Both the position numbers and the translations under genes were made by a program. Shown here in pieces: positions 3,097 through 46,632 of a DNA stretch of 64,000 nt (its first letter is position 1; each line of letters starts with the position of its first letter). The DNA is from a virus: positions 186,001 to 250,000 of the IMG/VR virus record IMGVR_UViG_3300025030_000038; one strand, written 5' to 3'. Under the pieces are notes generated by a model. That model did no database searches. It had not been told where the DNA came from and was given only the letters and a program-made list of their open reading frames with translations.

Positions 3097-3300
3097 ATGC
3101 TCACGGATGATGATGATTTTGCACTCCTCCCCTCTTTAGCCTACGAGAAGATGGAACGGATCCTTCGAGAGCGGGATGCCGCCTATGCGGTTCTACGTGA
3201 GGTTTGGAGGATTGCCGACAGGGGCTGTTCGGATGGGTGTTCCCCCGCAGCTTGTGGGAAAATGGTCAACTTGATCGAGCCGGTACTAGGGCCACCGTAG
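3097..3300 (+). CDS. hypothetical protein, 67 aa
   Basis: Acidic start (MLTDDDDFALLPSL), then a helix (YEKMERILRERDAAYAVLRE), then a Cys pair region (CSDGCSPAAC) that might bind a metal. The stop lies at the very start of the first sigma-28-like promoter copy. Confidence 0.6.
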   Translation: MLTDDDDFALLPSLAYEKMERILRERDAAYAVLREVWRIADRGCSDGCSPAACGKMVNLIEPVLGPP

Positions 3301-3345
3301 GATTTCACTAAAAAGTTGTCTTCTCGTGCCGATAGGGTAGTGAGG
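3299..3345 (+). promoter_or_regulatory. sigma-28-like promoter, site 1
   Basis: CTAAA, 15-nt spacer, GCCGATAG; TGAGG follows and serves as Shine-Dalgarno for 3351. Confidence 0.75.
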
Positions 3346-3350
3346 TTAAG

Positions 3351-3635
3351 ATGACCACACCCAAGGATCCAGCTGAGCGGATTGTCCGGCTTCGCAGGAA
3401 TGCGGAGCTTCAGAATGCCCGGTACCCTCAGTACAAGGGGCACTGGGACGGTCCTGAGTGGAAGCTTTTCCTGGTCACCCAGGATATCAGGACCAAGATG
3501 GGGCTGGCCTTCCTGGCGGGAGAGGTGACCCTTGCCAAGGTCATGTTCCTGGATGGCCGGGCAGTGGTCTCTGCCTACTCGACCCTGAATGGGGTCGACA
3601 CGATCCTTTCCCCGTCCAAGGGTCGCTGGCTGTGA
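3351..3635 (+). CDS. hypothetical protein, 94 aa
   Basis: Starts MTTPKDPAERIVRLRRNAEL. The middle is basic and aromatic (YPQYKGHWDGPEWKLF) and the C-terminus beta-like. It is the first gene behind promoter site 1 and heads a chain 3351-3632-3943 joined by GTGA and ATGA overlaps, so an operon is likely. Confidence 0.65.
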   Translation: MTTPKDPAERIVRLRRNAELQNARYPQYKGHWDGPEWKLFLVTQDIRTKMGLAFLAGEVTLAKVMFLDGRAVVSAYSTLNGVDTILSPSKGRWL

Positions 3636-3946
3636 CCCTCAAGCTCCGACAAGTGGTTCAGAACCTCGTTGGGGATATTCCTGACGGTAAGTTCTACACC
3701 CCCAAGGAATGGAATGCCTCTGTGGGGGAGTGGAACCAAGTCCATCCCAGTGCTCTTCTCGTGGTGGTCCATGGAGGAGGTAACCTTGCCCCCTTCTTCG
3801 ACCCTGAGGGTGACCGTGCGGTAGAGATGGATGGAGCCCTCCAGGCTTGTGGTGTGTATGCTGAGCTCTGTACGGGCTGGTATGCCGTCATCAATCCCCT
3901 CCCGGTAGCCATGCGAGGGAAGCCCGCTCTGAGGGTTGTACGATGA
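3632..3946 (+). CDS. hypothetical protein, 104 aa; paralog of 30231-30590
   Basis: A GTG start overlaps the upstream TGA (GTGA). The C-terminal 60 residues match the - strand protein at 30231: a VVVH-[DG]GG strand-turn, an acidic linker, then G[VL]YAE[LQ]C..WY..I. The N-terminus (VTLKLRQVVQNLVGDI) is predicted helical. A shared unknown fold; no catalytic motif is assigned. Confidence 0.65.
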   Translation: MTLKLRQVVQNLVGDIPDGKFYTPKEWNASVGEWNQVHPSALLVVVHGGGNLAPFFDPEGDRAVEMDGALQACGVYAELCTGWYAVINPLPVAMRGKPALRVVR

Positions 3947-4344
3947 CCGTCCAAGAACTTTTCGAGTCATTGCAGCGGATCCTGCAAAGCGGGAAGATGC
4001 CTGGGAACACCAAGGTCATACTCGATGTGGATGCCCGCCGGGGCCTCCATCGTCTTGGGGTTGATGATGGGGACAGGCTCATCCTTATGGCAGATGTCCC
4101 CGGCTCCATTTCCAATGAGCCTGCAACCCTAATTGGCTCCTTCCAGCCTGGAAGTGGCGTTCGGGTCCGGGTTCGTGAAAAGGGTCCCTTCAAGGGACTG
4201 TACGGAGAGGTCCGGAAATGTTGTACCAGCACCGGTCGGTACACAGTCTACCTGGAAGGTCTCCCTGAGGCGAACTATCCGGTCCTTTTTCGGAGCCGGG
4301 ATCTAGTCCCAACGGAGGGCCTTGTCCTGGACCCCCAAAAGTGA
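3943..4344 (+). CDS. hypothetical protein, 133 aa, with repeat-derived DPQK tail
   Basis: Starts MTVQELFESLQRILQSGKMP; central beta strands (KVILDVD, RLILMADV) and a barrel-like C-terminal half. The last residues LDPQK are encoded by the start of repeat B, exactly as at 4935 and 8101, so the natural C-terminus was probably replaced when the repeat arrived. ATGA overlap with the upstream gene. Confidence 0.65.
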   Translation: MTVQELFESLQRILQSGKMPGNTKVILDVDARRGLHRLGVDDGDRLILMADVPGSISNEPATLIGSFQPGSGVRVRVREKGPFKGLYGEVRKCCTSTGRYTVYLEGLPEANYPVLFRSRDLVPTEGLVLDPQK

Positions 4345-4426
4345 CCAATCCGAGAAAACCTAATGATTACGTCAGCCGGTAAGGCTAGCGGGGGCCATTT
4401 TGGTTAGGTTTTGACCCCGGTGGGCA
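4327..4426 (+). repeat. repeat B, full copy
   Basis: Begins inside the 3' end of the upstream gene (GGACCCCCAAAAGTGACC). AAAACCTAA at 4355-4363 pairs with TTAGGTTTT at 4404-4412, and an inner GCC/GGC hairpin lies between. It leads into a degenerate promoter copy. Confidence 0.7.
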
Positions 4427-4437
4427 TCGAAGTAGGT

Positions 4438-4485
4438 CGATTTTCCTAAAAGTGGGGTCTCCCGTTACCAATAGGGGTAGTGATG
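4438..4485 (+). promoter_or_regulatory. sigma-28-like promoter, site 2 (degenerate)
   Basis: CTAAA, 16 nt, ACCAATAG in place of RCCGATAG. Upstream of 4488; probably weak. Confidence 0.45.
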
Positions 4486-4487
4486 AC

Positions 4488-4814
4488 ATGAAGATGATGA
4501 ACAAGCTGACAGATATCCAATACAGTGATGAGGCTCAGGATCGTCCTCATATCTTGACCAAGGACGAGCTTGGTGTGTTTGGGGGGTTACCAATTCGGGT
4601 GTGTGTCTATCCCCGGGCAGCTGGTCCTGAGTACCGTGCCATGGCTGACTTGGGACCTGATGGGGATCTCACCACCTTTGCATCCGAGTTCTGTTCATCG
4701 ATCAGGGAGGCTGTTGAGGGGCTTCGCAGGGTGGTACGCCTGGAGGTGGTTGATCGGGCCCTGGGGCTTGAGGCTGCGAAGGACCTGTTCAAGGAGCTGA
4801 GCTTCGAGGTATAG
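4488..4814 (+). CDS. hypothetical protein, 108 aa; paralog of 2093-2620
   Basis: Starts MKMMNKLTDIQYSDEAQD. It carries the same KDELG..GGLPI..CVYP pattern and GPDG turn as the N-terminal half of the protein at 2093, then a Leu/Arg/Val helix. Its last codons (ELSFEV-stop) and 15 bases beyond are duplicated as a remnant at 5708-5742. Confidence 0.65.
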   Translation: MKMMNKLTDIQYSDEAQDRPHILTKDELGVFGGLPIRVCVYPRAAGPEYRAMADLGPDGDLTTFASEFCSSIREAVEGLRRVVRLEVVDRALGLEAAKDLFKELSFEV

Positions 4815-4934
4815 GGCCACATATGGCAATGGCCGATTTCGGTTAAAAGTTGAGACATCATACCGACGAGACGCGAGAATCGGACGGGGCATGAACTGAC
4901 GTGTGAAGTTATTACACCGCACCTCGCGATTGGG

Positions 4935-5234
4935 ATGAAGAGGCCAGATGGATCATTTGCGGTTCCTCCGTTCGCGATGGGGACGGGCAGAGCCCATGCG
5001 TACAGGTCGGATGAGGCGCAGTGTGCAATCTGTGAGCGCCCGGTGCGGTGTATGGGCGAACAAAGCCAGGAGGGGGACTACCCGTATCTTGCCATTGTGA
5101 TCGACGGTGGTGCGGCATGGGGGGACCAGGACAGTGACGCCAGTGCACCTGGGTACATGGGAGAGTTTCCGGTGGGTGCAGACTGCCACCGACGATTCGT
5201 GGAACGGGGTCCTGTCCGAGACCCTCAAAAGTGA
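4935..5234 (+). CDS. hypothetical protein, 99 aa, with DPQK tail
   Basis: A CxxC motif (CAICERPVRC, residues about 31-40) and a later DCHRRF suggest a small metal site or degenerate HNH/treble-clef. The C-terminal DPQK comes from repeat B. No sigma-28-like site lies directly upstream; the 120 bp before it show nothing I recognise. Confidence 0.6.
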   Translation: MKRPDGSFAVPPFAMGTGRAHAYRSDEAQCAICERPVRCMGEQSQEGDYPYLAIVIDGGAAWGDQDSDASAPGYMGEFPVGADCHRRFVERGPVRDPQK

Positions 5235-5316: not shown

Positions 5317-5327
5317 TAACAGGGGAC

Positions 5328-5750: not shown

Positions 5751-5795
5751 GGATTTTGCTAAAAAGTTGGCTTCCCGTGCCGATAGGTAGTGAGG
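5751..5795 (+). promoter_or_regulatory. sigma-28-like promoter, site 3
   Basis: CTAAA, 15 nt, GCCGATAG. The start codon is 60 bp further on (5856), so the leader is longer than at most sites. Confidence 0.7.
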
Positions 5796-5855: not shown

Positions 5856-6215
5856 ATGACCAAGCGTGAAGTTGAGCAGCCCAAGACATCCGTAACCGTG
5901 ACGTTCGAGGTTGAGAACGAGGAGATCGAGTCCTTGCTGATCAGTGCCATCGAGTCTGGCGGAATCCGGTATTGGGGGCATGTGGACTCCACAAGCTGTC
6001 CCGACCGGGCACACTACTGGGGGGTGACCATCTACGAGAACGAGGACCCCAGGCGGGAGTGTGTGATGAACCATGCTTCCATCGTGAGGGGCCTTCAGGT
6101 GATGGCCCGGGAGTACCCTGACCATTTCAAGGATGTCCTGATCAGCAACTGTGATATGGTCACGGCTGACGTGTTCATCCAATGTGCCCTGTTTGGGGAG
6201 ATCGTGTACGGGTAG
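5856..6215 (+). CDS. hypothetical protein, 119 aa
   Basis: Starts MTKREVEQPKTSVTVTFEVE. The pattern is alternating strands and helices (ESLLISAIESGGIRYWG; DVLISNCDMVTADVFIQCALFG). I do not recognise the family. It is expressed from site 3. Confidence 0.65.
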   Translation: MTKREVEQPKTSVTVTFEVENEEIESLLISAIESGGIRYWGHVDSTSCPDRAHYWGVTIYENEDPRRECVMNHASIVRGLQVMAREYPDHFKDVLISNCDMVTADVFIQCALFGEIVYG

Positions 6216-6644: not shown

Positions 6645-6660
6645 ATTGGGGGCCGAATAT

Positions 6661-6704
6661 GATTTCACTAAAAGTTGCCTCCACGTACCGATAGGATATT
6701 GAGG
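6661..6704 (+). promoter_or_regulatory. sigma-28-like promoter, site 4
   Basis: CTAAA, 14 nt (one short), ACCGATAG, then TTGAGG; drives 6710. Confidence 0.7.
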
Positions 6705-6709
6705 ATACC

Positions 6710-6886
6710 ATGAAGATTCGACTTTCGAAGGGTGAGATGGAGCAGTACCGGGCATTTGATTTCGGGTCAGGGTTCAAGTCCCTGGCGGGGCTCAGGTTAG
6801 GGCCCGCAGCTAATCTCCCTATTGCGCACACATTGGCATGGATGCCTTGGCAGCTAAAAAAGTATGTTCCGAATGTGGGACTCTGA
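6710..6886 (+). CDS. short ORF at promoter, 58 aa, possibly interrupted
   Basis: MKIRLSKGEMEQYRAFDFGS continues in good codon usage to about residue 45, then overlaps the HNH gene in another frame. This is the gene expected at promoter site 4. It may be a real gene whose 3' part was replaced when the HNH nuclease arrived. Confidence 0.45.
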   Translation: MKIRLSKGEMEQYRAFDFGSGFKSLAGLRLGPAANLPIAHTLAWMPWQLKKYVPNVGL

Positions 6887-7506: not shown

Positions 7507-7550
7507 CGATTTCCCTAAAAAGTCACCTTCCCGTACCGATAGTAGTTTGT
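7507..7550 (+). promoter_or_regulatory. sigma-28-like promoter, site 5 (tRNA locus)
   Basis: CTAAA, 15 nt, ACCGATAG. No ORF follows; tRNA-like sequences begin about 60 bp downstream, so it probably drives the tRNA locus. Confidence 0.7.
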
Positions 7551-7608
7551 AACAACAACGCGGACCGCCCAGGAGTTCTGGGGCCCGAAAGGGTGCTGAT
7601 GAAGCTAG

Positions 7609-7745
7609 AGGGGTGCAGCTCCCCTGCCCGCGACCGAGTCTCATGTGTGTGTTGGATGTGCAGGGGTTCGATTCCCCCTAGCCCCTGGATGGGGACGGTC
7701 GGTGTGGACTGACCGTAGCTGGGTTCAATTCCTGGCCACACATGG
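7609..7745 (+). tRNA. degenerate tRNA-like segment(s)
   Basis: Two T-arm-like hairpins occur: GGGGTTCGATTCCCC near 7662-7676 and CTGGG-TTCAATT-CCTGG at 7719-7735. ATGTGTG at 7643-7649 pairs perfectly with CACACAT at 7737-7743 as a possible acceptor stem, and a stem with loop GTGTGGAC lies between. No standard cloverleaf closes. Either noncanonical tRNAs with enlarged D-arms or decayed ones; identity unresolved. Confidence 0.35.
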
Positions 7746-8823: not shown

Positions 8824-8870
8824 CGATTTCCCTAAAAAGTCCCCCTCCCATACCGATAGGTATTTGAAGG
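8824..8870 (+). promoter_or_regulatory. sigma-28-like promoter, site 6
   Basis: CTAAA, 15 nt, ACCGATAG; precedes the mini-gene at 8876. Confidence 0.7.
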
Positions 8871-8875: not shown

Positions 8876-8998
8876 ATGGACACCATATGGCTCGGGATGG
8901 GTAGTAGGTCCTGGCAGGGCATCCTAGAAAAACCCGAAGAGGCTTCTCAGGCCAGCGCGGGGTGGGATGTCCTGCTAGGCTCTATTCGGATGTCCTGA
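8876..8998 (+). CDS. mini-gene, 40 aa
   Basis: MDTIWLGMGSRSWQGILEKP... ends ...SIRMS, located right after promoter site 6. No similarity recognised. It is included because nearly every promoter copy is followed by a gene at this distance. Confidence 0.45.
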   Translation: MDTIWLGMGSRSWQGILEKPEEASQASAGWDVLLGSIRMS

Positions 8999-9229: not shown

Positions 9230-9275
9230 CGATTTCACTAAAGATCCTCCTTCTCGTGCCGATAGGGTATTGAGG
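9230..9275 (+). promoter_or_regulatory. sigma-28-like promoter, site 7
   Basis: CTAAA, 15 nt, GCCGATAG, then TTGAGG; drives the 9281-10551 operon. Confidence 0.75.
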
Positions 9276-9280: not shown

Positions 9281-9529
9281 ATGAATCCCATCAACGAACT
9301 CGGGCACACGTCATTCAGCGTGGTGGGGCTTTCGGCGGGGGCCAAGGCGGCGGGGTACACGATTGAGCGTGTGGTCATTGGGCACCTCTACCCCAAGAAT
9401 GGCAACGTTTTCAACCCCACGCCCCGGCTTCGGTTCACGGTGTACCTGAACGGGGGCATCGTGGGCACATACTTCTTTCGTAGGGATGCCATCGAGCTGG
9501 CCAACGGGATTGTCTCGGGGAAGTATTGA
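9281..9529 (+). CDS. hypothetical protein, 82 aa
   Basis: Starts MNPINELGHTSFSVVGLSAG and is beta-rich at the end (RLRFTVYLNGGIVGTYFF). First gene of a tight five-gene run (9281, 9538, 9726, 9974, 10243) behind promoter site 7. Confidence 0.65.
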   Translation: MNPINELGHTSFSVVGLSAGAKAAGYTIERVVIGHLYPKNGNVFNPTPRLRFTVYLNGGIVGTYFFRRDAIELANGIVSGKY

Positions 9530-10584: not shown

Positions 10585-10839
10585 ATGCACAGCACCAGCA
10601 AGGTGTACTTTAGTGAGTTGTCACTGGCCCGCCAGGGCATGCGGGCCCTCAAGGCGAGGGTCACCCTCGGGTTCTAACCAGAGCCCCCGAGTGTCCTGTA
10701 TGCAGTGTTGCTGCGGCAGTCGGGCCAACACCTGGATGCTGTGAAGGCCGTCCGACAGGACAACATTGGGTCTGGCCTGGAAGCATGCCTCTCCTGCGAG
10801 ATCACGTCACTGGCCAGTAGCGGTGAAGCCTATCGGTAG
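10585..10839 (+). CDS. 84-codon frame with in-frame TAA at codon 31
   Basis: MHSTSKVYFSELSLARQGMR runs 30 codons to a TAA at 10675-10677. The same frame continues for 53 codons with coding-like composition (VLYAVLLRQSGQHLDAVKA) to a TAG. Either a 30-aa gene followed by decayed sequence, a TAA mutation or sequence error, or a readthrough gene. The window also encodes a tRNA with anticodon UUA. Confidence 0.45.
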
Positions 10840-11036
10840 CTGACCCTATTGAACTTCATGCACTCGCATCCGGCGCTTCCAAGGATGCCATCGGGCCCCT
10901 CGACCACGCACTCAAAGGCCCCCGTACCGCGCTTGCCACAGGTGTGTTCACCACGCTTGTGGCCACAGGTGCACATGGCATCATCATCCACGTCATACTG
11001 GCCAGTGACGTGATCTCGGTTCGTGTTCTTCTCCAT
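10830..11036 (-). CDS. Cys-rich small protein, 68 aa
   Basis: Starts MEKNTNRDHVTGQYDVDDDA. Cysteines CTCGHKRGEHTCG, then a later C and CEC, suggest a zinc knuckle. The start lies 9 nt from the - strand promoter site 12, and the 3' end converges with 10585-10839. Confidence 0.65.
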   Translation of the reverse strand: MEKNTNRDHVTGQYDVDDDAMCTCGHKRGEHTCGKRGTGAFECVVEGPDGILGSAGCECMKFNRVSYR

Positions 11037-11044: not shown

Positions 11045-11093
11045 GCTTCAATACCCTATCGGCACGAGAATGGGGATTTTTAGTGGAATCGAC
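11045..11093 (-). promoter_or_regulatory. sigma-28-like promoter, site 12
   Basis: On the - strand: CTAAA, 15 nt, GCCGATAG, TTGA; drives 10830-11036. Confidence 0.75.
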
Positions 11094-11528: not shown

Positions 11529-11575
11529 CGATTTCGCTAAAAACTACCCCTCTCGTGCCGATAGGGAAGGAAGGA
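11529..11575 (+). promoter_or_regulatory. sigma-28-like promoter, site 9
   Basis: CTAAA, 15 nt, GCCGATAG; GGAAGGAAG follows as a strong Shine-Dalgarno for 11583. Confidence 0.75.
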
Positions 11576-11582: not shown

Positions 11583-11900
11583 ATGACCAAGCACATCCTA
11601 CAGCAGATCATCGATGACTCTGAGGGCTTCACCAGCCGGTCCTACAGTGGACGGGGCATGTACGGGAAGACCTGCCTGGGGGTCGAACTGGGCATGGACA
11701 ACACCCTGGGAGAGTTCCTGGCTGCCCTCGTCTGGGGGGCGGAGGACAACAGCCGTCACCTGATGGATCTGGCCGAGGGCCTGCGTAGTGCCCAGACCGA
11801 CAGCATGGGTTTGGGACAGATCCTCTACTTCCCCGATGTCCCCTACACGGACGAGGATGACTCGGAGGAAGACGATGACTCGGAAGAGGATGATGAGTAG
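11583..11900 (+). CDS. hypothetical protein with poly-acidic tail, 105 aa
   Basis: Starts MTKHILQQIIDDSEGFTSRS. The body is helical, with a C-terminus of repeated acidic blocks (EDDSEEDDDSEEDDE). An acidic tail can mimic DNA or bind basic proteins, but this is speculation. Confidence 0.65.
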   Translation: MTKHILQQIIDDSEGFTSRSYSGRGMYGKTCLGVELGMDNTLGEFLAALVWGAEDNSRHLMDLAEGLRSAQTDSMGLGQILYFPDVPYTDEDDSEEDDDSEEDDE

Positions 11901-11909: not shown

Positions 11910-11955
11910 CGATTTCGCTAAAAAGTCCCATCCCCGTACCGATAGGTAGTTGAGG
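11910..11955 (+). promoter_or_regulatory. sigma-28-like promoter, site 10
   Basis: CTAAA, 15 nt, ACCGATAG, TTGAGG; drives 11965. Confidence 0.75.
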
Positions 11956-11964: not shown

Positions 11965-12180
11965 ATGACCACCCTGACCAACGAACGAATCGAATCCCTC
12001 GCCAGCCAGCCGGGCGTGTCCCGCAAGGCGGTTGAGAATTTCCTGTTCACCGTAGGCCCCGTCACCCGGGCCAATGTCCAAGGTATCGTCGGCAACCTCA
12101 TGGCGGATGCCCGCTCCTACCGGTGGTCACAGGAAACCATCCAGGCCATCCGGACCGGCATCATGGACGCCCTGTCGTAG
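11965..12180 (+). CDS. hypothetical protein, 71 aa
   Basis: MTTLTNERIESLASQPGVSR: helical, with a possible helix-turn-helix (SRKAVENFLFTVG). ALxxxPGVS- and VGPVTR-type motifs resemble those in the next gene (LLFYMGPVRSEKDALAII), so the two may be paralogs. Confidence 0.6.
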   Translation: MTTLTNERIESLASQPGVSRKAVENFLFTVGPVTRANVQGIVGNLMADARSYRWSQETIQAIRTGIMDALS

Positions 12181-12478: not shown

Positions 12479-12524
12479 CGATTTCACTAAAAAGTCCTCC
12501 TCCCGTGCCGATAGGTAGTTGAGG
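12479..12524 (+). promoter_or_regulatory. sigma-28-like promoter, site 11
   Basis: CTAAA, 15 nt, GCCGATAG, TTGAGG; drives 12530. Confidence 0.75.
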
Positions 12525-12529: not shown

Positions 12530-12739
12530 ATGAAGAAACCCCCCGCAGTCAACAAAATCAGCAAGCTCCTGACCGAAACCTCTGTTGGCAAGCTCGTGAT
12601 GATGCTCGCAAATGACCCAAACATGGTGATATCGGTGGACCTCATCAAAACCATAAAAGGGGAGCCGGGCAGCGCGGAGGCGTGGCTAGAAATCAAGGCA
12701 TTCATGAACGCCCGGCTCGGAGTCCAGGAGCCCAAATGA
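12530..12739 (+). CDS. hypothetical protein, 69 aa
   Basis: MKKPPAVNKISKLLTETSVG: basic start, then helical. Followed by a strong hairpin at 12807-12841, so this transcription unit probably ends there. Confidence 0.6.
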   Translation: MKKPPAVNKISKLLTETSVGKLVMMLANDPNMVISVDLIKTIKGEPGSAEAWLEIKAFMNARLGVQEPK

Positions 12740-17755: not shown

Positions 17756-18050
17756 CTACTGGGCCATGCAGGCACAGGCCACACACAAGGCCTGAAGAAC
17801 GTTGAGACCGGCCTTGAGGGATGCCGGTGAGACCTGCTTCTCGGCCGTGAGCAGGATGTGGCCTGACATCACCGAGAAGGTACCCAGGAACATGCCGTTC
17901 CGGTGAACCACCACCAGAGGAGACTTGGAGGTTTCCGTGGGGCCGATGGCATCGAAGTCCCAGCAGTCCTGGAGGGTCGCCGGGCTTGAGATCCCGGTGC
18001 AGCAGCACGCTGGTGGCCACGCTGCCTTGCTGGGGGATCCAGGTGCTCAT
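17756..18050 (-). pseudogene. small gene with apparent frameshift
   Basis: MSTWIPQQGSVATSVLLHR begins in one frame. The continuation with natural composition (SPATLQDCWDFDAIGPTETS... VVVHRNGMFLGTFSVMSGHI) is in another, ending ...ACACMAQ at 17756. The switch is near a GGG at about 17993. Unrecognised family. Confidence 0.5.
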
Positions 18051-18361
18051 TTGACCTCGATTTCATGTCCCATGAGCCGGGCAGTTTCCCCGGACTTGAA
18101 CTGAACCGTGTAGGGAACCCCCTCGGGACAGAATCCGATTACCTCCCCCACTTCTTGGGTTGAGATAACACGGACCCGGTCTCCCACCACAATCCGTACC
18201 CCGTATTGGAACCGGAAGGATGCCTTGAAGGTATGTGTCTTCTGACATGCCTTGCAGGTGACCTGCAAAACATCCTGGGTCTTCTTAGTATCTGCCCCGA
18301 TAGGCCGAAGGCAATCCGTCACCACATTACCCTGTCCATAGAAATGAAGAGTGTCTTTCAT
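18047..18361 (-). CDS. hypothetical protein, 104 aa
   Basis: MKDTLHFYGQGNVVTDC has a Cys pair (CKAC) that may form part of a zinc site, then a KOW/SH3-like C-terminus (GDRVRVISTQEVGEVIGF). First gene behind promoter site 13, overlapping the next gene start by 4 nt. Confidence 0.65.
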   Translation of the reverse strand: MKDTLHFYGQGNVVTDCLRPIGADTKKTQDVLQVTCKACQKTHTFKASFRFQYGVRIVVGDRVRVISTQEVGEVIGFCPEGVPYTVQFKSGETARLMGHEIEVK

Positions 18362-18370: not shown

Positions 18371-18416
18371 CTCACAACCCTATCGGTACGGGAAGGGGAC
18401 TTTTTAGCGAAATCGA
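18371..18416 (-). promoter_or_regulatory. sigma-28-like promoter, site 13
   Basis: CTAAA, 15 nt, ACCGATAG, TGAGG on the - strand; drives 18047-18361. Confidence 0.75.
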
Positions 18417-18419: not shown

Positions 18420-18731
18420 TTAGACCTGTGACCACTCGAAGATAAACCCAGCCTGTGTCCCGTACCTGCGAACGGTGTCTTCCAGCTCCCGGGTCATCTC
18501 AGCAACCGCCCGAGACTGGGCTACGGGGATCCCGTTCCGGAGCGCGAACGCCTGAGCCTCAACGACGTTGAAGCCAGCCCTAGCGATGTACTCCCGGGCC
18601 TTGTCGCGAGCATGGGTGTCATCCTCGGGCAGGAACGCTGGGCGTGGATCCCCACAGCTCTCACATTCGAGCTTGGTGATTGGGTGGGTCTTGGTACAAC
18701 TGCAAGGCCAAGTGGTCGGGCTCATTGTCAT
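18420..18731 (-). CDS. zinc-ribbon-like protein, 103 aa
   Basis: Starts MTMSPTTWPCSCTKTHP; the CSC...CESC pattern (residues about 10-28) resembles a RanBP-type or ribbon zinc site, followed by a helical domain (AREYIARAGFNVVEAQAFAL). Unknown function. Confidence 0.6.
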   Translation of the reverse strand: MTMSPTTWPCSCTKTHPITKLECESCGDPRPAFLPEDDTHARDKAREYIARAGFNVVEAQAFALRNGIPVAQSRAVAEMTRELEDTVRRYGTQAGFIFEWSQV

Positions 18732-18736
18732 TCCCC

Positions 18737-18796
18737 TCAGTCGATCTGGTAGTAGCAGGTGACCTTCCAGCCACGCTCGCGAAGGACCTTCTCCAT
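18737..18796 (-). CDS. 19-aa micro-ORF
   Basis: MEKVLRERGWKVTCYYQID begins 4 nt after promoter site 14 and its Shine-Dalgarno region, exactly where genes sit at other copies, and ends before the next gene. It may be a real microprotein or a leader. Confidence 0.45.
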   Translation of the reverse strand: MEKVLRERGWKVTCYYQID

Positions 18797-18800
18797 CGCT

Positions 18801-18848
18801 TCTCAATACCCTATCGGCACGGGGAGCACAATTTTTAGCAAAATCGAC
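18801..18848 (-). promoter_or_regulatory. sigma-28-like promoter, site 14
   Basis: CTAAA, 15 nt, GCCGATAG; drives 18737 and probably 18420. Confidence 0.75.
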
Positions 18849-28834: not shown

Positions 28835-28880
28835 CCTCAATACCCTATCGGCACGAGAGGGGAGATTTTTAGCGGAATCG
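28835..28880 (-). promoter_or_regulatory. sigma-28-like promoter, site 18
   Basis: CTAAA, 15 nt, GCCGATAG; drives 28593. The divergent tagged gene at 28900 begins just behind it. Confidence 0.75.
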
Positions 28881-29607: not shown

Positions 29608-29843
29608 CAGTTCCCTGTGTGGGTGGCAAGGATCTCTCGGTTGATCTGCTTCAGGGACTCCGCGTCCAGCCAGAAGGACACCTTGCCCCCGGTCATGTTG
29701 CCGTCCGAGCGCCGGAACTTGAGGTTGGTTGTCGTGTGCGGATAGACCATGTCCACGATGATCGTGGTCGGGGTTGTTCGGAGGACCTTGCAGGTGGTCT
29801 GTGTGGGATGGTTGCGGTTGGAGATCCAAACGATGGCGTCCAT
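29604..29843 (-). CDS. hypothetical protein, 79 aa
   Basis: MDAIVWISNRNHPTQTTCKV: beta-rich (TTIIVDMVYPHTTTNLKFRR; KVSFWLDAESL). The 3' end overlaps the convergent tagged gene by 4 nt. Behind promoter site 19. Confidence 0.6.
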   Translation of the reverse strand: MDAIVWISNRNHPTQTTCKVLRTTPTTIIVDMVYPHTTTNLKFRRSDGNMTGGKVSFWLDAESLKQINREILATHTGNC

Positions 29844-29854: not shown

Positions 29855-29900
29855 TTTCAAATACCTATCGGTACGGGAAGGGGACTTTTTAGCGAAATCG
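29855..29900 (-). promoter_or_regulatory. sigma-28-like promoter, site 19
   Basis: CTAAA, 15 nt, ACCGATAG; drives 29604-29843. Confidence 0.75.
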
Positions 29901-29905: not shown

Positions 29906-30109
29906 CTATGCCCGGCCCGAGCGGATTGCCTCAGCCATGAAGGCTACCCAACGGGTAGGGCAGGTCGAAGTTGCCTCGATCATGTCCATGATCTCGTCGG
30001 TTGAACACTCGTAGGCAACCGCCGTGCGGATCCGGGCAATGATTGCCTCGTTGATTTCGGCACCGTTGACGTTGACCCGGTTCGAGAATGTTGCGTCGTT
30101 GGTGTTCAT
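29906..30109 (-). CDS. hypothetical protein, 67 aa
   Basis: MNTNDATFSNRVNVNGAEIN; helical (EAIIARIRTAVAYECSTDEI). Sits between promoter sites 19 and 20 as a single-gene unit. Confidence 0.6.
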   Translation of the reverse strand: MNTNDATFSNRVNVNGAEINEAIIARIRTAVAYECSTDEIMDMIEATSTCPTRWVAFMAEAIRSGRA

Positions 30110-30116: not shown

Positions 30117-30162
30117 CCTCACAACCCTATCGGCATGAGGGGACCAATTTTTAGTGAAATCG
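30117..30162 (-). promoter_or_regulatory. sigma-28-like promoter, site 20
   Basis: CTAAA, 15 nt, GCCGATAG, TGAGG; drives 29906-30109. Confidence 0.75.
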
Positions 30163-30648: not shown

Positions 30649-30927
30649 TCAGGACTGACGACCCAAAACAGTTTCCACCCAGGCATAGTTCTGGTTGTGA
30701 CAGTCCTGGGGGATGACGCTGGCCGACTCGATCTGTCGGAATGCACGCTCCTGGATCCACTTGCGCGCCCAGCCTTTGGTCGTCCAGGTCTTGGCCTGCG
30801 TGACATCGCTGGTTGCCCAGCTGCCATCCCACTGGGGCTTCTCGGCCACATACAGGATGTGCTCCGTGCCCACACGGACCCGGACTGCGAAAAGGCTTAC
30901 TGCGACTCGGTAGGTGGTCATGTTCAT
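30649..30927 (-). CDS. hypothetical protein, 92 aa; paralog of 27695-27916
   Basis: MNMTTYRVAVSLFAVRVRVG, then QWDGSWAT and TTKGWARKW, shared with 27695. Basic and aromatic. MNM start context behind promoter site 21. Confidence 0.65.
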   Translation of the reverse strand: MNMTTYRVAVSLFAVRVRVGTEHILYVAEKPQWDGSWATSDVTQAKTWTTKGWARKWIQERAFRQIESASVIPQDCHNQNYAWVETVLGRQS

Positions 30928-30929: not shown

Positions 30930-30976
30930 CCTCACAACCCTATCGGTATGGGGGGGTGACTTTTTAGTGAAATCGA
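30930..30976 (-). promoter_or_regulatory. sigma-28-like promoter, site 21
   Basis: CTAAA, 15 nt, ACCGATAG, TGAGG; drives 30649. Confidence 0.75.
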
Positions 30977-30985: not shown

Positions 30986-31171
30986 CTACTCGTTTGAACC
31001 CACTGGCATTCGGCTGTGAACGAACTCTCGGGCCCTGGTCTGGGACTTGAAGACCCAACGCTGTCCCGCAATCTCCACCTTGAAGGGGTGCGAGGGCTGG
31101 CCAGAAAACTCAATCACGATCGCCGAGCCCTGTACCTGAGTGATCCGGGTGTTGTATTGGTTGGTCGCCAT
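30986..31171 (-). CDS. hypothetical protein, 61 aa; paralog of 33849-34055
   Basis: MATNQYNTRITQVQGSAIVI is nearly identical to the start of the + strand protein at 33849 (MATNRYNTRITQVQGSPLVI); the homology continues through SQTRAREFV. Small beta-rich protein of unknown role. The pair on opposite strands shows duplication with inversion. Confidence 0.65.
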   Translation of the reverse strand: MATNQYNTRITQVQGSAIVIEFSGQPSHPFKVEIAGQRWVFKSQTRAREFVHSRMPVGSNE

Positions 31172-31180: not shown

Positions 31181-31227
31181 GCCTCAATACCCTATCGGCA
31201 CGAGAAGGCAACTTTTTAGTGAAATCG
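31181..31227 (-). promoter_or_regulatory. sigma-28-like promoter, site 22
   Basis: CTAAA, 15 nt, GCCGATAG, TTGAGG; drives 30986-31171. Confidence 0.75.
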
Positions 31228-32844: not shown

Positions 32845-32999
32845 TCACACCTGTCCCGGTTCTTGGGTCATCTGGTGAAACTGCTCAGCCAGCTCGGCCA
32901 TTCGGGCCCGACTCCGGGCCAGGACCTCCGGCCGACCAACCCCCCTAGCATCCAGGAAGGCCAGGAACGGTCCATAGCTTCGAGTTCTTCAACGGTCAT
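32845..32999 (-). pseudogene. small gene with apparent one-base frameshift
   Basis: MTVEELEA starts in frame behind promoter site 23, but the natural continuation (YGPFLAFLDARGVGRPEVLA, RMAELAEQFHQMTQ) is in another frame, ending at 32845. The shift lies near 32975. Confidence 0.55.
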
Positions 33000-33006
33000 G
33001 GGCATC

Positions 33007-33053
33007 CTCACAACCCTATCGGTACGGGAGGGATGACTTTTAGGAAATTCCGA
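33007..33053 (-). promoter_or_regulatory. sigma-28-like promoter, site 23
   Basis: CTAAA, 15 nt, ACCGATAG, TGAGG; back-to-back with site 24 on the other strand. Confidence 0.7.
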
Positions 33054-33061: not shown

Positions 33062-33108
33062 CGATTTCTCTAAAAAGTGCCTTGCCCCATACCGATAGAG
33101 TTGTGAGG
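33062..33108 (+). promoter_or_regulatory. sigma-28-like promoter, site 24
   Basis: CTAAA, 16 nt, ACCGATAG, TGAGG; drives 33116. Forms a divergent pair with site 23, 8 bp apart. Confidence 0.7.
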
Positions 33109-33115: not shown

Positions 33116-33319
33116 ATGAAACCCATCCTGACCGTCCCAGCGAATCCTCAGGGAACCCGGATCCACCGAGTCTTCCGTCTTCGTGCGGGCTACTTCGTGG
33201 TCTACCTGAACCTGCTCCCGGACGGTAGCTCTGACTCGAACACGGTCCGCCAGGAGTACACGGGTCAGGGTGCGGAGAAGGCTGCCAAGGATTCCGCGCT
33301 GGCCCTGGTGAACTCATGA
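33116..33319 (+). CDS. hypothetical protein, 67 aa
   Basis: MKPILTVPANPQGTRIHRVF: a beta hairpin pattern (RLRAGYFVVYLNLLPDG), then a helix. Overlaps 33316 by 4 nt. Confidence 0.6.
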   Translation: MKPILTVPANPQGTRIHRVFRLRAGYFVVYLNLLPDGSSDSNTVRQEYTGQGAEKAAKDSALALVNS

Positions 33320-33484: not shown

Positions 33485-33530
33485 CGATTTCACTAAAAAG
33501 TCACCCCTTGGTACCGATAGGGTTGTGAGG
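33485..33530 (+). promoter_or_regulatory. sigma-28-like promoter, site 25
   Basis: CTAAA, 15 nt, ACCGATAG, TGAGG; drives 33537. Confidence 0.75.
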
Positions 33531-33536
33531 ATGCCC

Positions 33537-33773
33537 ATGGAAACAATGACCCGAAATCATTCGTGCACGGACCTTGCGGGGACGGTGCATGTGAGCGTTT
33601 CCCGTGGGCGTCACCGGCACTTCTGGGTCTCCCTTCGGGCAGATGGCCGGGTGGAGGTCCGGGATACCTCCATGACTGTGACGGGTCGGGTTGTGGGTCG
33701 TAGAGACCAGCCCGGCGCCCCCTTCCGGGGGTCCAACGATGCCAGGGAAGCCGTGATGGTGGCCCTGTCTTGA
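33537..33773 (+). CDS. hypothetical protein, 78 aa
   Basis: METMTRNHSCTDLAGTVHVS: beta-rich (RHFWVSLRADGRVEVRDTSM), basic end. The ATG at 33537 is preferred to 33531 because GAGG would otherwise abut the start codon. Confidence 0.6.
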   Translation: METMTRNHSCTDLAGTVHVSVSRGRHRHFWVSLRADGRVEVRDTSMTVTGRVVGRRDQPGAPFRGSNDAREAVMVALS

Positions 33774-33789: not shown

Positions 33790-33835
33790 TTGATTCTCCT
33801 AATTGTGGGACCCCCCATACCGATAAGGTTGTGAG
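33790..33835 (+). promoter_or_regulatory. sigma-28-like promoter, site 26 (degenerate)
   Basis: A perfect ACCGATAA -10 box but CTAATTG in place of CTAAA; drives 33849. Confidence 0.5.
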
Positions 33836-33848: not shown

Positions 33849-34055
33849 ATGGCGACCAACCGATACAACACCAGGATCACGCAAGTTCAGGGCAGCCCAC
33901 TAGTCATCGAATTCAGTGCCCAGCCCAGCCGCCCCTTCAAGGTGGTGATTCCTGGGGAGTTCCTACCGGATGGTTCCCCCAAGCACATTGTGTTCACCAG
34001 CCAGACCAAGGCCCGTGAGTGGGTCCGTGCCAACAGCAAGATCGTGTGTCCGTAA
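33849..34055 (+). CDS. hypothetical protein, 68 aa; paralog of 30986-31171
   Basis: MATNRYNTRITQVQGSPLVI; compared with its paralog it has an extra loop (EFLPDGSPKHI) before SQTKAREWV. Likely the same small beta fold. Confidence 0.65.
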   Translation: MATNRYNTRITQVQGSPLVIEFSAQPSRPFKVVIPGEFLPDGSPKHIVFTSQTKAREWVRANSKIVCP

Positions 34056-36441: not shown

Positions 36442-36465
36442 GATTGTAGTTACACCTTTGGCGGG

Positions 36466-36540
36466 TGCCCCATGCGAGATTTGAACTCGCGATCCTGAGG
36501 TTAAAGCTCAGAGCATTAGGCCGCTATGTCTCAATGGGGC
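36466..36540 (-). tRNA. tRNA with anticodon UUA (ochre suppressor type)
   Basis: Acceptor GCCCCAT/ATGGGGC is perfect, as are T-arm GCGAG-TTCAAAT-CTCGC and anticodon stem CTGAG/CTCAG. The loop CTTTAAC gives anticodon TTA, which pairs with UAA (and UAG by wobble). The D-arm is weak: a 3-bp GAG/CTC stem is possible if the anticodon stem shrinks to 4 bp. GG and flanking A are present in the D-loop. No CCA is encoded; discriminator A. Whether it is charged, and with what, is unknown. Confidence 0.75.
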
Positions 36541-37351: not shown

Positions 37352-37473
37352 GACCTTGTTCCTTGATTACATCGACTGACCTTCACTTGAGATGAAATTG
37401 GGCAGACCAATGCTAGAGGGGGGCCACGACAGTACGGCAGTTAGTGGTGCATGGCCCCCATGATAAGCACGGT

Positions 37474-37779
37474 CTAGATCCTGTCAAGTATGCCACTGGT
37501 CAAGTATGCAACTGACGCCCAATCACCAACACCAAACCATTCCGTCCCATTCTCCAAAATGTGAGGACAGGGGTTCAAATCCAGGTTGGGCCTGTAATGT
37601 CCAATATCCAGGGCGCATTGCCCGCCCTGGTGCCAAGCCTGACACCGGTTCGTATCGGGCAGATCTGGTGGCTCCAAGGGCCTCAGGGAAGCCTTTTTGT
37701 GGGCCCACCGCGCCCTATCCCGTCGATTGCGGTGGTCCTTACGAGTTTGGAATTCTGCTATCTTGATGACGTTGGACAT
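37474..37779 (-). CDS. hypothetical basic protein, 101 aa
   Basis: MSNVIKIAEFQTRKDHRNRR, strongly basic at first, then CQAWHQGGQCALDIGH: Cys/His that could bind metal. It starts 3 nt after the downstream end of the PTH2 gene at 37783. A tRNA-like stretch inside it was rejected. Confidence 0.5.
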   Translation of the reverse strand: MSNVIKIAEFQTRKDHRNRRDRARWAHKKASLRPLEPPDLPDTNRCQAWHQGGQCALDIGHYRPNLDLNPCPHILENGTEWFGVGDWASVAYLTSGILDRI

Positions 37780-38205: not shown

Positions 38206-38217
38206 TGTTTCACCTAG

Positions 38218-38291
38218 CGTCCCCGACACGAATTGAACGTGTGACCTGTAAATTAGGAATTCACCGCTCTGTCCATCTGAGCTACGGGGAC
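38218..38291 (-). tRNA. tRNA-Arg (CCU)
   Basis: Acceptor GTCCCCG/CGGGGAC; D-stem GCTC/GAGC; anticodon stem GTGAA/TTTAC with loop TTCCTAA (anticodon CCT, codon AGG); T-arm ACACG-TTCAATT-CGTGT. All canonical except a G-U in the anticodon stem. Discriminator G, no encoded CCA. Followed 13 nt later by a PTH2 gene. Confidence 0.9.
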
Positions 38292-40557: not shown

Positions 40558-40749
40558 TCAGCCCTCATCAACCATCGAATCAAGTTCCCCCTGAACCTCA
40601 CGGTCCTCCATGTAGGAGTCCATGAGCTCCCTGACATCGTTGCAGGCACCACCCCTGGGGGCTCGCCGATCATGCATCGAACCTGCCCCGGTACGGAACT
40701 GGGCAGAAACAGCACTGGCGGAACGTCCGATGGTCTTCAGGGTCTTCAT
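40558..40749 (-). CDS. hypothetical protein, 63 aa
   Basis: MKTLKTIGRSASAVSAQFRT, basic, then an acidic helix (RELMDSYMEDREVQGELDSM). First gene behind promoter site 27. Confidence 0.6.
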   Translation of the reverse strand: MKTLKTIGRSASAVSAQFRTGAGSMHDRRAPRGGACNDVRELMDSYMEDREVQGELDSMVDEG

Positions 40750-40761: not shown

Positions 40762-40808
40762 CTCACAACCCTATCGGCACGGGATAGCCCACTTTTTCAA
40801 GAAATCGA
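40762..40808 (-). promoter_or_regulatory. sigma-28-like promoter, site 27
   Basis: TGAAA in place of CTAAA, 16 nt, GCCGATAG, TGAGAG; drives 40558. Confidence 0.6.
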
Positions 40809-41702: not shown

Positions 41703-41906
41703 TCAGTCTACCTCATACGCGGTGATCATGTGCGCTCGAACGGGCATGAGGTTGGCATCCTCCATGTTGCCCGAGGCGACTTGGGCGAGGGTTCGCTTGA
41801 CCCGCGCACGATTTGCGCGGTGGGCGTTTGCCTTGAACTCCGAGAGGGAGTGATCCCCACAACATCGACGGATCATCTTTCGGGCCGAGCGGGTCACGAG
41901 GTTCAT
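41703..41906 (-). CDS. hypothetical basic protein, 67 aa
   Basis: MNLVTRSARKMIRRCCGDHS: Arg-rich helices (FKANAHRANRARVKRTLAQV), so nucleic-acid binding is plausible. Behind promoter site 28; ends 3 nt before the membrane microprotein. Confidence 0.6.
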   Translation of the reverse strand: MNLVTRSARKMIRRCCGDHSLSEFKANAHRANRARVKRTLAQVASGNMEDANLMPVRAHMITAYEVD

Positions 41907-41920: not shown

Positions 41921-41966
41921 CCTTACACCCTATCGGCACGAGATGGAAGATTTTTAGTAGAATCGT
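41921..41966 (-). promoter_or_regulatory. sigma-28-like promoter, site 28
   Basis: CTAAA, 15 nt, GCCGATAG; drives 41703. Confidence 0.75.
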
Positions 41967-42224: not shown

Positions 42225-42509
42225 CTACTCCTCCCCGAAGGCGTTGAAGGTGCCATAATCTTCGTCAGTTCCCCAACCCGCGGAGGCCAAGGCCGACGCA
42301 TGATCACCGTCCATGGAATCGTTGAAATCGTCGTCCTCGTAGGACTCGTCATCGTCATCGGGGTCATGGTCGTCGGAATCATCCATGTCCTCGGAGTCCG
42401 TGGGCTCCCCCTGGTGTCCCCTCATGTTGTCAAGGTCGAAGTCGTCCTCGTAGAGGGGCTCGATCTCGCTGCCTGCTTCGATTTCTTCCATGTCGCGATC
42501 GGTGTCCAT
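42225..42509 (-). CDS. very acidic protein, 94 aa
   Basis: MDTDRDMEEIEAGSEIEPLY, then almost entirely Asp/Glu/Ser (DSDDHDPDDDDESYEDDDF). Such compositions occur in DNA mimics and in unstructured chaperone-like proteins; no specific family. Behind promoter site 29. Confidence 0.65.
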   Translation of the reverse strand: MDTDRDMEEIEAGSEIEPLYEDDFDLDNMRGHQGEPTDSEDMDDSDDHDPDDDDESYEDDDFNDSMDGDHASALASAGWGTDEDYGTFNAFGEE

Positions 42510-42524: not shown

Positions 42525-42570
42525 TTCAATACCCTATCGGCACGAGAAGGGTAATTTTTAGGGAAATCGA
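42525..42570 (-). promoter_or_regulatory. sigma-28-like promoter, site 29
   Basis: CTAAA, 15 nt, GCCGATAG, TTGA; drives 42225 and 41966. Confidence 0.75.
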
Positions 42571-44160
42571 CAGGGGGACTACCCTTTCACCTCGGATGCC
42601 TTGGCCAACCTCCACTTCCTTACCGTTGACAATCTATACGCGTTTATCCCTCTTGCGAGGTTTAATGGGTATCGGTTGTTTTGGAGCTATGCGGGTGAGG
42701 CTGTTACCAGCCATACCCCCACAGTAAGCTTCGGGCTCATCGGTGTGAGCTCCTTCTAACAGGGATCTTGGTGATCTGAACCGCAAGCGGTGCCTTTCAT
42801 CCAAGATCGCTTTCACCGACTTCACTGAGGTTTTCAACCCAATCTGGTTATCCCCGGAACGTCCGAGCAGATTGGATCCCCCAACAAAATCCGCATGACT
42901 CTTTCTGCCACAACTCTGGCAGACAAACTTTACTCCCCGACGGTTACTCCGGGAAACGAAATGACACGAAGGACATTCCTGACTCGTATAAGCCGGGTTC
43001 ACCTTCTCCGTAACTGCTTTCCTCTCCAGACTCGATTGAAGGGCCCTGTAGGCAAACCTTTTCGACCCAGGTGCACTGGAGAGATCCAAATCCTCAACCA
43101 CAAATGTGGTGTTTGGGTGGCTCTTCACGAGCTGGTTAGCTACCGTATTCGTTGCCGTCTTGATCTGGCCGGAGAGCCTCCGCTCCATGGCCCACAACCG
43201 ACGGCTATCCTCCAAGAACCCTTGTCGTTTCCTGTTAGCTCGGATGGACTGAGCTCTCTTATGGAGCCTGTTGAACTTGGCCTTAAATCGTTGACCATAG
43301 AGGGTTCCGCTTGAAGTGGCCGCCAACACATTCAAGCCAACATCAATCCCCAACTTGCCAGCCGAACCATCGAGAACCGGATCTTCTGACTTCTCAGAGA
43401 ATTGGAAGGTCCAATGACCGTCGGGGCGCTTCGCGGCCAGGACCGTCAGCTGGACATCCTTGCGTTTACGAAGAAAGGGGGACTCTTTGAGGGGAAGGAA
43501 GATGGTTTTGTACCGAGTCAAAGAGGAGAACTTGAGCCACCAACCGTGAAAATGAGATGCTCCGGACTCTCGGAAGGTACAGGTCATCTCCGTGAATCGC
43601 AGGGGAAATCGCTCGCTGATTGTAGGTGGGTTTCCAACAGTCTCGGGATTCCAGACCCACGACCAATACAGGTCAACGAGTTCTTGAGAGATCGTCCCCT
43701 TCCCAAATTTCCCTCCATGGGTCAGCCGGTACTTCCCAATTGTGTAAAGCTGAAGGGCTTCCAAGTCACTGTAAGTACCGTCTTCTTTGAGTCCCGTGAT
43801 CTTGGCTTTGAGGGTTCGACCGTAAACTCCGTTGACCCAACCATGAACCAACTCGACTGCTTGAGCTTGAGCGTTTTTGACTAGTTGGGAAGAGAGTATC
43901 TCCGAGGTTGGGAAGTAGGATTTCCGACCTGAGGGGAGGACATTGAAGATTCGGTTGGAGACCATCAACTTGACACACGATTGGACGTACTGGATATGCT
44001 CCGCATGGAGTAAGTCTAGTTGGTGAACCTTCCCCGAATTGGTTTCGGGGTCCAATAATGTGATCCTGGCCTTCATGTCTCTACAGTTAAGGGTAAGCTA
44101 TAAGGCAGGTATTGAGGGTCAGTACGATTTTCCACCTGTGGTCAAATGAGGATAATTGAG
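42571..44160 (-). mobile_element. IS605-type element carrying tnpB only (approximate limits)
   Basis: tnpB (42634-44076) with short AT-richer flanks at 42571-42633 and 44077-44160. No tnpA was found, so it cannot move alone. The right flank is where an omega RNA and end hairpin would be expected; exact ends could not be fixed. Confidence 0.5.
42634..44076 (-). CDS. tnpB: TnpB RNA-guided endonuclease, 480 aa
   Basis: RuvC-like residues are present in order: LGIDVGLNVLAATS (Asp, about residue 243), FVVEDLDL (Glu, about 332), and ADFVGGSNLL (Asp, about 400). The zinc ribbon CPSC...CQSC (about 375-395) lies before the last Asp. The N-terminal WED/REC-like region is complete, so the nuclease looks active. 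The family cuts DNA guided by omega RNA and helps retain its element. It sits between accessory genes and a LAGLIDADG gene. Confidence 0.85.
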   Translation of the reverse strand: MKARITLLDPETNSGKVHQLDLLHAEHIQYVQSCVKLMVSNRIFNVLPSGRKSYFPTSEILSSQLVKNAQAQAVELVHGWVNGVYGRTLKAKITGLKEDGTYSDLEALQLYTIGKYRLTHGGKFGKGTISQELVDLYWSWVWNPETVGNPPTISERFPLRFTEMTCTFRESGASHFHGWWLKFSSLTRYKTIFLPLKESPFLRKRKDVQLTVLAAKRPDGHWTFQFSEKSEDPVLDGSAGKLGIDVGLNVLAATSSGTLYGQRFKAKFNRLHKRAQSIRANRKRQGFLEDSRRLWAMERRLSGQIKTATNTVANQLVKSHPNTTFVVEDLDLSSAPGSKRFAYRALQSSLERKAVTEKVNPAYTSQECPSCHFVSRSNRRGVKFVCQSCGRKSHADFVGGSNLLGRSGDNQIGLKTSVKSVKAILDERHRLRFRSPRSLLEGAHTDEPEAYCGGMAGNSLTRIAPKQPIPIKPRKRDKRV

Positions 44161-44839: not shown

Positions 44840-44861
44840 AAGCCGTCCCTTCTTACCGAGC

Positions 44862-46028
44862 CTACCCCTTCATACAAAGAATGCCGCGGAGCTCAGTCAC
44901 AATATTGACAAGATCGGTTTGGTTGGCCATGACACTGTCCAAGTCCTTGTAGGAGTCCTTAATTTCGTCAAGGACCCCCGCATCCTTCCGGCAACAGACA
45001 CCTTCTGTGGACTTGATGAGGTCAGCCACTGTGAAGTTTTTCTTAGCTTGGCTCCGACTCATCTTACGTCCTGCCCCATGAGAGGCAGAGTTGAAGGACT
45101 CAGGGTTTCCTTTGCCCCGAACAATGTAAGACTTACCACCCATGGCTCCGGGAATAATCCCCATGGCCCCCTCCCCAGCATAGATGGCCCCTTTTCGGGT
45201 AATGAAGACCCGCTCTCCAAAATGGACCTCCTCGGCCACATAGTTGTGGTGACAGGCAATCATTTCCTTAAGAGATACAGTCAGTGTTGGGAGGTACTTT
45301 TGCAACACCTTGATCCCTAGGTGAAGCATCACCTCTCGGCTCTTCAAGGCATAGTCCTGTGCCCAAAATAAGTCATTTCTGTATTGGTCCATCTCCTTGG
45401 TGCCAGCAAGGAATACTGCCAAGTCACGATCAATGATCCTCTCATTGTGGGTTAGCTTCTTGGCCTTCTCAATGTGAATCTCAGCAAGTGTCTTACCAAT
45501 GTTGCGGGAACCACTGTGCAACATAAGCCACACTTTCTGATCTGTATCGAGGCAAATCTCCCAGAAATGGTTGCCAGCTCCTAGGGTGCCCATCTGCACT
45601 CTGGCCTTACTCCAGAGGTCTTGCACCTTGGGTGTAAGTGTGTTGAACCGAGTCCAGCCATCCCAGTCCTTTGCCAGTCCAGAGACCTCGGAATGCCCAT
45701 TGAAACTCTGGGGAATTGCTTCCTCCAAAGCGGAGAGAATAGCTTCCAGGTTGTCGGGCAGGTCCTTCGCGAACAGGTTGGTAGGGATGGCTGCCATCCC
45801 ACAACCAATATCCACGCCCACAGCAGCTGGGCTCACAGCATCCCGCATGGCGATCACGCTACCTATGGTCGCCCCTTTGCCGACATGCACGTCGGCCATG
45901 ACAGCCACATGATGATAAACCCATGGGAGGGCTGAGACTTTTCTCAACTGGGTGAGGGCCTCCGACTCCACCTCTGCGATGGGTGCCCAAATCTTAACCG
46001 GGACGTTGATCCCTTTGAGTTCTTCCAT
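44862..46028 (-). CDS. rtcB: RtcB RNA ligase, 388 aa
   Basis: ADVHVGKGATIGSVIAM (residues about 45-61), GVDIGCGMAA (about 72-81), LHSGSRNIGK (about 177-186), HNYVAEE and a late SHGAGRKMSRSQA (guanylylated His region) are all diagnostic RtcB motifs. It joins 2',3'-cyclic phosphate or 3'-phosphate to 5'-OH RNA ends, so it can reseal tRNAs cut by anticodon nucleases. Length is normal for short RtcB forms. Confidence 0.95.
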   Translation of the reverse strand: MEELKGINVPVKIWAPIAEVESEALTQLRKVSALPWVYHHVAVMADVHVGKGATIGSVIAMRDAVSPAAVGVDIGCGMAAIPTNLFAKDLPDNLEAILSALEEAIPQSFNGHSEVSGLAKDWDGWTRFNTLTPKVQDLWSKARVQMGTLGAGNHFWEICLDTDQKVWLMLHSGSRNIGKTLAEIHIEKAKKLTHNERIIDRDLAVFLAGTKEMDQYRNDLFWAQDYALKSREVMLHLGIKVLQKYLPTLTVSLKEMIACHHNYVAEEVHFGERVFITRKGAIYAGEGAMGIIPGAMGGKSYIVRGKGNPESFNSASHGAGRKMSRSQAKKNFTVADLIKSTEGVCCRKDAGVLDEIKDSYKDLDSVMANQTDLVNIVTELRGILCMKG

Positions 46029-46135
46029 GGTGAGACAGTTACTCCCCCAAACATCGGCTGTCCACTAAATTCACCTCTAACGCATTGAGTCGATTTCCGC
46101 CCGGCAACTCCAGGTTGCCTCGGTAGCATGTCCCT

Positions 46136-46585
46136 ATGACACCTACCTACCTGCTCTTCATGGCTCTTTTCTCAATGTTTCCCACATCTCCAGCCCGTTC
46201 CTGCCTGGAACGAAGGCAAACTGAGGTAGTGCAACTTGCCACGGATGCCGCGGAGAGAAACAACATCCCACCATCAGTTCTGTTAGTTGTTGGATTTTCA
46301 GAAACCCACCTTGGATGTGATGCAGGGGAGGCTGGTGGGTGGGGTGCCCCAGTTGACCGGCATCACCGGCACACGGCGGGCACCCCCAACACCGCTGCCC
46401 ACATCCTGGCCCGGTCCTTCGAGGTTTGCCACACTTGGGAGGGGGCGGTCAGCCGGTTCCGGTCGGGCATGTGCAGGTTGCCACGCGAGGATTATCGCAT
46501 ACCATACGTGGTCCGCACCCTCAGGATCATTGAACTTCTCCACACCCGTACAGGTCAGCCCCTCCCCCCTGCCTTCCGTCGTTAG
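46136..46585 (+). CDS. lytic transglycosylase-like secreted protein, 149 aa
   Basis: A signal peptide (MTPTYLLFMALFSMFPTSPA), then NNIPPSVLLVVGFSETHLGC (residues about 42-61), resembles the SLT catalytic Glu context (A...E..). GGWGAPVD and a C-terminal RFRSG/Y block fit a compact lysozyme-like fold. Predicted to cut peptidoglycan; a regular SLT-type match needs confirmation. Confidence 0.55.
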   Translation: MTPTYLLFMALFSMFPTSPARSCLERRQTEVVQLATDAAERNNIPPSVLLVVGFSETHLGCDAGEAGGWGAPVDRHHRHTAGTPNTAAHILARSFEVCHTWEGAVSRFRSGMCRLPREDYRIPYVVRTLRIIELLHTRTGQPLPPAFRR

Positions 46586-46587
46586 AA

Positions 46588-46632
46588 CGATTCTGCTAAA
46601 AATTGGGTCTCCCGTGCCGATGGGGGGTAAGG
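46588..46632 (+). promoter_or_regulatory. sigma-28-like promoter, site 30
   Basis: CTAAA, 15 nt, GCCGATGG; GGGAGAAGGAG follows as a strong Shine-Dalgarno for 46646. The last copy before the structural block. Confidence 0.7.

Follow-up and report, generated by a model that had tools for sequence, protein, structure and literature searches.

Which sigma factor reads the promoter-like element that is repeated in front of small genes in an uncultured huge phage? The stretch analysed here (the window, 64,000 nucleotides (nt) long) runs from base 186001 to base 250000 of a virus record of 485,040 bp. A 25-kb portion of this record was compared with GenBank LR745208.1, an unannotated uncultured phage, and matched it at 100%; a literature search found no paper naming the accession LR745208. 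The element looks like a promoter for the flagellar sigma factor sigma-28, and the initial annotation assigned it to a sigma-28-family factor of either the phage or its host. Because relatives of the phage spell the element differently and the phage has a hidden sigma of its own, we favor a private phage switch over the host flagellar system. In the reading that we consider probable, the element marks a promoter class specific to this phage, and host RNA polymerase recognizes it with the help of a divergent sigma that the phage itself encodes, P0003. The genomes themselves show the elements and their orientation toward genes, the genes for sigma-like proteins, and the differing elements of relatives, while promoter activity, the reading sigma and the timing are inferred from these sequences.

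A two-block element in front of small genes

We found 30 copies of GATTTCnCTAAAAA-N~15-RCCGATAGGG in the window with a two-block weight matrix, and none above threshold in the reversed sequence used as a control, in agreement with the roughly 30 copies annotated initially. Exact matches to CTAAA-N13-17-RCCGATA number 25 in the window (shuffle mean, 0.01) and 52 in the 485-kb genome, where the reversed pattern has none; the genome-wide total reaches about 56 once small changes are allowed. The spacer is 15 nt long in 26 of the 30 window copies, 16 nt in three and 14 nt in one, so that the predominance of 15 nt had been recognized correctly and only its count (24) needs revision. The consensus, cGATTTcnCTAAAAAnTnnccntCnCGTgCCGATAGGG, is followed by a GAGG/AAGG Shine-Dalgarno sequence and an ATG, and the block upstream of CTAAA, CGATTTC, is indeed conserved, as had been noticed. 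Each of the 30 window copies precedes a reading frame that starts with ATG and is 35 codons long or more; it usually begins 8-25 nt past the element. Over the whole genome, the element shows 55 bits of conservation, and an ATG lies within 39 nt after 91% of the copies.

The window copies occupy both strands and point into genes, as annotated. A direct aim at the tRNA locus, also proposed, was not borne out: no window copy facing a tRNA gene straight on was confirmed, and the minus-strand copies above the tRNAs meet small reading frames first. ARAGORN predicts two tRNA genes in the window, both on the minus strand, at 36464-36540 (anticodon TTA, a UAA suppressor tRNA) and 38217-38291 (Arg(cct)). 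The genes behind the elements are small and mostly without a known family. Genome-wide, there are clusters of sites at 71-124, 138-171 and 189-233 kb, but only about five sites past 250 kb; within the window, 46.6-64 kb is free of them, just as the initial annotation stated. Back-to-back divergent pairs are found at 33.0 kb inside the window and at 73.3 and 250.5 kb outside it. Dyad counts in the 250-350 kb region revealed no second repeated bipartite promoter class. An exact-pattern scan of IMG/VR returned only two fragments, both representing the same sites as in this genome. The element is almost certainly a genuine promoter class, with a layout that supports a role in front of many small genes. 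Its -35 region would be extended (CGATTTCnCTAAAA) and separated by 15 nt from a -10 region, RCCGATAGGG, whose position would place the transcription start just before the Shine-Dalgarno sequence. The class would comprise mostly small accessory genes on both strands within 0-250 kb of the genome, with probably middle or early-middle timing.

Elements of related phages and the sigma-28 resemblance

The element of this phage was found in none of 50 relatives' records, although a conserved host sigma would predict that relatives keep the same sequence; they have other motifs instead. Spaced word pairs were counted in stretches from 15 relatives, eight of which possess a repeated bipartite element of their own, with another sequence and mostly facing a nearby gene start: CGATTtCaCTAATGG..CCGGTTAGGG in G050, CGATTCtcGGTTACA..CTCCGTGG in G009, GAATCGTGTAAT..CCGTTA in G012, GAATCGTGTAAA..CGCTT in G011, AGACTTACTT..GCGTAGAT in G021, GGGGCTTATTTC..AGAGTAGTCTAGG in G054, GGTTGC..CCGTATA in G036 and TTCCC..ACGTAA in G049. 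Cross-counts of six motifs in seven phages are near-strictly diagonal, the off-diagonal values (0 or 1) being at the level of the reversed control. The closest relative, G050, keeps CGATTtCaC; TAATGG..TCCGGTTAGGG stands there in place of the TAAAAA..GCCGATAGGG of this phage. Since CGATTtCaC is kept there beside changed boxes, we read the upstream box, left unexplained by the initial annotation, as a -35 extension also retained by G050 and G009, both near relatives. A repeated element of a different kind, intergenic palindromic TTACC-N12-GGTAA sites, occurs in G042 (L193-L197, L257 and L087).

The Escherichia coli sigma-28 consensus is TAAAGTTT-N11-GCCGATAA (PMC2859248). As annotated, the element equals it in both boxes and in spacing. 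TAAA, the 15-nt spacing to GCCGATA and the position at gene starts are shared with the flagellar promoters of sigma-28 (FliA/SigD) (PMC2859248). Unlike these, the phage element adds a conserved CGATTTCnC upstream, CGT before the -10 box and GGG after it; relatives of the phage use other sequences, and no FliA-family protein was found in the phage. The FliA_WhiG model (TIGR02479) detected nothing over its cut-off (189.6 bits) in the 485-kb genome, and its best score, 22.3 bits, covers only region 4 of a tandem helix-turn-helix (HTH) protein, P0001. The phage does have a sigma-like protein of its own, as one branch of the initial proposal had it, but membership in the FliA/SigD family is not supported.

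It is unlikely that a host sigma-28 (of the FliA, SigD or WhiG type) reads the elements and that the phage thereby exploits the flagellar sigma of its host. This would account for the identity of boxes and spacing, and P0003 is not recognizably FliA. However, it fails to explain the relatives, because the sigma-28 consensus is widely conserved, yet relatives with orthologous sigmas differ in their -35 and -10 boxes. Their elements have the same build without the sigma-28 sequence, the extended upstream box and the GGG lie outside the sigma-28 consensus, and the phage has its own sigma-like gene. Agreement with a known consensus, exact spacing included, is no guarantee that the known factor acts.

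The divergent sigma-like protein P0003

P0003 (244 amino acids (aa); genome 155285-156019) is a very divergent sigma70-family protein. The Pfam region 2 model (PF04542) detected nothing in the phage genome. In relatives, it gives weak matches, over or near the cut-off in some, to a family of 290-450 aa proteins. A profile of six relatives' proteins from this family (A2) matched a single protein of this phage, P0003 (E = 6.5e-33), which is tied to the sigma70 family only through the relatives' profile and is missed by the Pfam region 2 and FliA models. With the family profile (A3), region 2 and the C-terminal HTH both align to the solved structure of a sigma-H (3mzy; E = 1.9e-6), so that the family has the region 2 and the region-4-like HTH of sigma70-type proteins. 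Sigma-H is the only significant solved-structure match of the family profile. The C-terminal HTH of the family varies between phages. Of 42 relative records, 11 have a strong match to the A2/A3 family; with G057 set aside, the five largest are among them. G057, which encodes other sigma-like proteins, is the only record larger than 370 kb without the family.

A good host-type sigma70 promoter, TTGACA-N16-TATATT (one mismatch), starts 59 nt before the ATG of P0003. Only two such one-mismatch sites exist in the 183 kb searched, the second (TTGACA-N16-TATCAT) lying at about 37450-37487 of the window on the minus strand. No similar pattern was found in about 260 nt before each of six relatives' sigma genes. 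A search of the genome for an RNA polymerase beta' subunit found none. P0003 is the best candidate reader of the element. It would probably be made first, from the host-sigma70 promoter, and host RNA polymerase with P0003 would then most likely read the element.

In phages phiEco32 and 7-11, host sigma70 directs synthesis of a phage sigma, and this sigma in turn opens the promoters of the phage (PMC4331800). They would share with our phage a sigma of their own, the use of host polymerase, many phage promoters and a sigma70-type promoter before the sigma gene; unlike them, ours is an unrelated huge phage with a different promoter sequence. P0003 and the element would together give a phiEco32-like cascade. 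Compared with phiEco32 and 7-11, there are probably many more element copies here, and the sigma is probably more divergent. Group 2 jumbo phages resemble our phage in that no RNA polymerase of their own was found and in having a phage sigma with small HTH proteins; the available text of that study does not describe cognate promoters or their change between phages, and here a tandem double region-4 protein is present (PMC7824862).

Sigma identity correlates with element similarity across seven phages (Mantel rho 0.65, p about 0.009; the similarity measure was constructed for this analysis). The G009 sigma used here is L234, from another contig of the same sample, joined to G009 only by its four copies of the G009 element. 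The sigma-28 likeness would then be where a promoter code stands at present, in a huge-phage family in which this code and its sigma drift together. We are evenly divided on the broader claim that each lineage of this widespread family has a promoter code private to it, which changes as its cryptic sigma diverges, to the point that even phages whose sigmas are 50-74% identical differ visibly in their promoters. If true, this would be a natural evolution of orthogonal transcription systems, one branch of which reached the sigma-28 sequence.

Several observations weigh against a phage-specific promoter class read by P0003. Seven relatives (G025, G038, G040, G042, G044, G048 and G057) show no element in the sampled stretches of 60-127 kb, and several of them do have the sigma. 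The fraction of elements with an ATG within about 40 nt is 0.40 in G050 and 0.50 in G036, near the estimated chance of about 0.44. P0003 alone has no significant solved-structure match, and its structure model, of low confidence (predicted local distance difference test (pLDDT) 64), gave no significant match in a structure comparison. In both G009 and G050, a further sigma (phrog_351), more ordinary and complete in having regions 2 and 4, is encoded near a contig end (L163, G009 12.9 kb; L164, G050 16.6 kb) and could be the reader there. P0001 identity also correlates with element similarity (rho 0.55), and the co-divergence of sigma and element is therefore not separable from general phage phylogeny. 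Finally, the exact sigma-28 match would be a coincidence.

Little is known about how huge phages that are uncultured and lack an RNA polymerase of their own run their gene programs, and P0003 with its element would provide a concrete answer for one family. A cryptic sigma that the standard region 2 model misses, combined with promoters readable in the genome, would make it possible to assign genes to classes without a culture. A series of diverged sigma-promoter pairs would also be a natural data set on the evolution of sigma specificity and might supply promoters that are orthogonal to one another.

Tandem region-4 proteins and other features

P0001 (197 aa, at 295 kb, after a KOW-motif NusG-like gene) and P0002 (269 aa, at 75.6 kb, after tRNA genes) each consist of two region-4 HTHs in tandem without region 2, and are 46% identical to each other. 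By sequence, their nearest solved relatives are region 4 of SigF and of FliA. About 80 relatives of P0001 were found in IMG/VR, on contigs of up to 619 kb, and P0002 as a query found nothing in viral contigs. Matches of P0001 in metagenome-assembled genomes did not identify the host and lie on short or possibly mis-binned contigs. Five tRNA genes (two Gly and three Arg) lie directly upstream of P0002 (L191 2287-2783, minus strand; genome about 76.3-76.8 kb) and may be co-transcribed with it.

The two proteins may assist P0003 or serve another class. In phage T4 (gp55/gp33) and in Bacillus (SigO/RsoA), region-2-like and region-4-like functions reside on separate small proteins. Such a division could exist here, P0003 reading the -10 region and P0001 or P0002 reading the long upstream region CGATTTCnCTAAA with one HTH per half. 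The tandem region-4 architecture without region 2, the similarity to region 4 of SigF and FliA, and a conserved upstream block longer than a normal -35 box would all suit such an arrangement, which we nevertheless consider improbable. The two recognition helices of P0001 hardly change between phages with different -35 boxes, which disfavors P0001 as the -35 reader. Furthermore, P0001 sits away from the element-rich region, and P0003, unlike the region-2-like proteins of the T4 and Bacillus systems, carries its own C-terminal HTH. It is very improbable that the element is a binding site or processing signal without promoter function, since, although the sequence evidence gives position and conservation only, two blocks stand at a fixed 15-nt spacing in a consensus without inverted symmetry, in a fixed orientation to genes, immediately followed by a Shine-Dalgarno sequence and ATG, and with the same build in relatives.

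Table 1. Copies of the promoter element in the window and the open reading frames (ORFs) that follow them
Feature	Position	Strand	Downstream ORF
Element, spacer 15	3300-3337	+	3351-3635
Weaker element, spacer 16	4438-4476	+	4488-4814
Weakest element (19 bits)	4834-4871	+	4935-5234
Element	5751-5788	+	5856-6215
Element, spacer 14	6660-6696	+	6710-6886
Element	7507-7544	+	7599-7712 (next ATG ORF, short)
Element	8824-8861	+	8876-8998
Element	9230-9267	+	9281-9529
Element	11054-11091	-	10830-11036
Element	11529-11566	+	11583-11900 (phrog_14658, unknown function)
Element	11910-11947	+	11965-12180
Element	12479-12516	+	12530-12739
Element	18378-18415	-	18047-18361
Element	18809-18846	-	18420-18806 (TTG start) or 18420-18731 (ATG)
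Element	27180-27217	-	26982-27161
Element	27941-27978	-	27695-27916
Element	28548-28585	-	27980-28537 (UPF0227/esterase-like)
Element	28843-28880	-	28593-28832
Element	29863-29900	-	29604-29843
Element	30125-30162	-	29906-30109
Element	30938-30975	-	30649-30927
Element	31190-31227	-	30986-31171
Element, back to back with 33062-33100	33014-33051	-	32868-33005
Element, spacer 16, divergent partner of 33014-33051	33062-33100	+	33116-33319
Element	33485-33522	+	33531-33773
Weaker element	33791-33828	+	33849-34055
Weaker element, spacer 16	40769-40807	-	40558-40749
Element	41928-41965	-	41703-41906
Element	42532-42569	-	42225-42509
Last element (CCGATG)	46588-46625	+	46620-46784 or 46646-46918

Just upstream of the element at 42532, a transposase-type protein (phrog_506, possibly TnpB-like) is encoded at 42634-44076 on the minus strand. 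The window also contains genes for an RtcB RNA ligase (44862-46028, minus strand) and a second RNA ligase family member (61963-62991, minus strand), as well as a divergent GroEL (49319-50866, plus strand).

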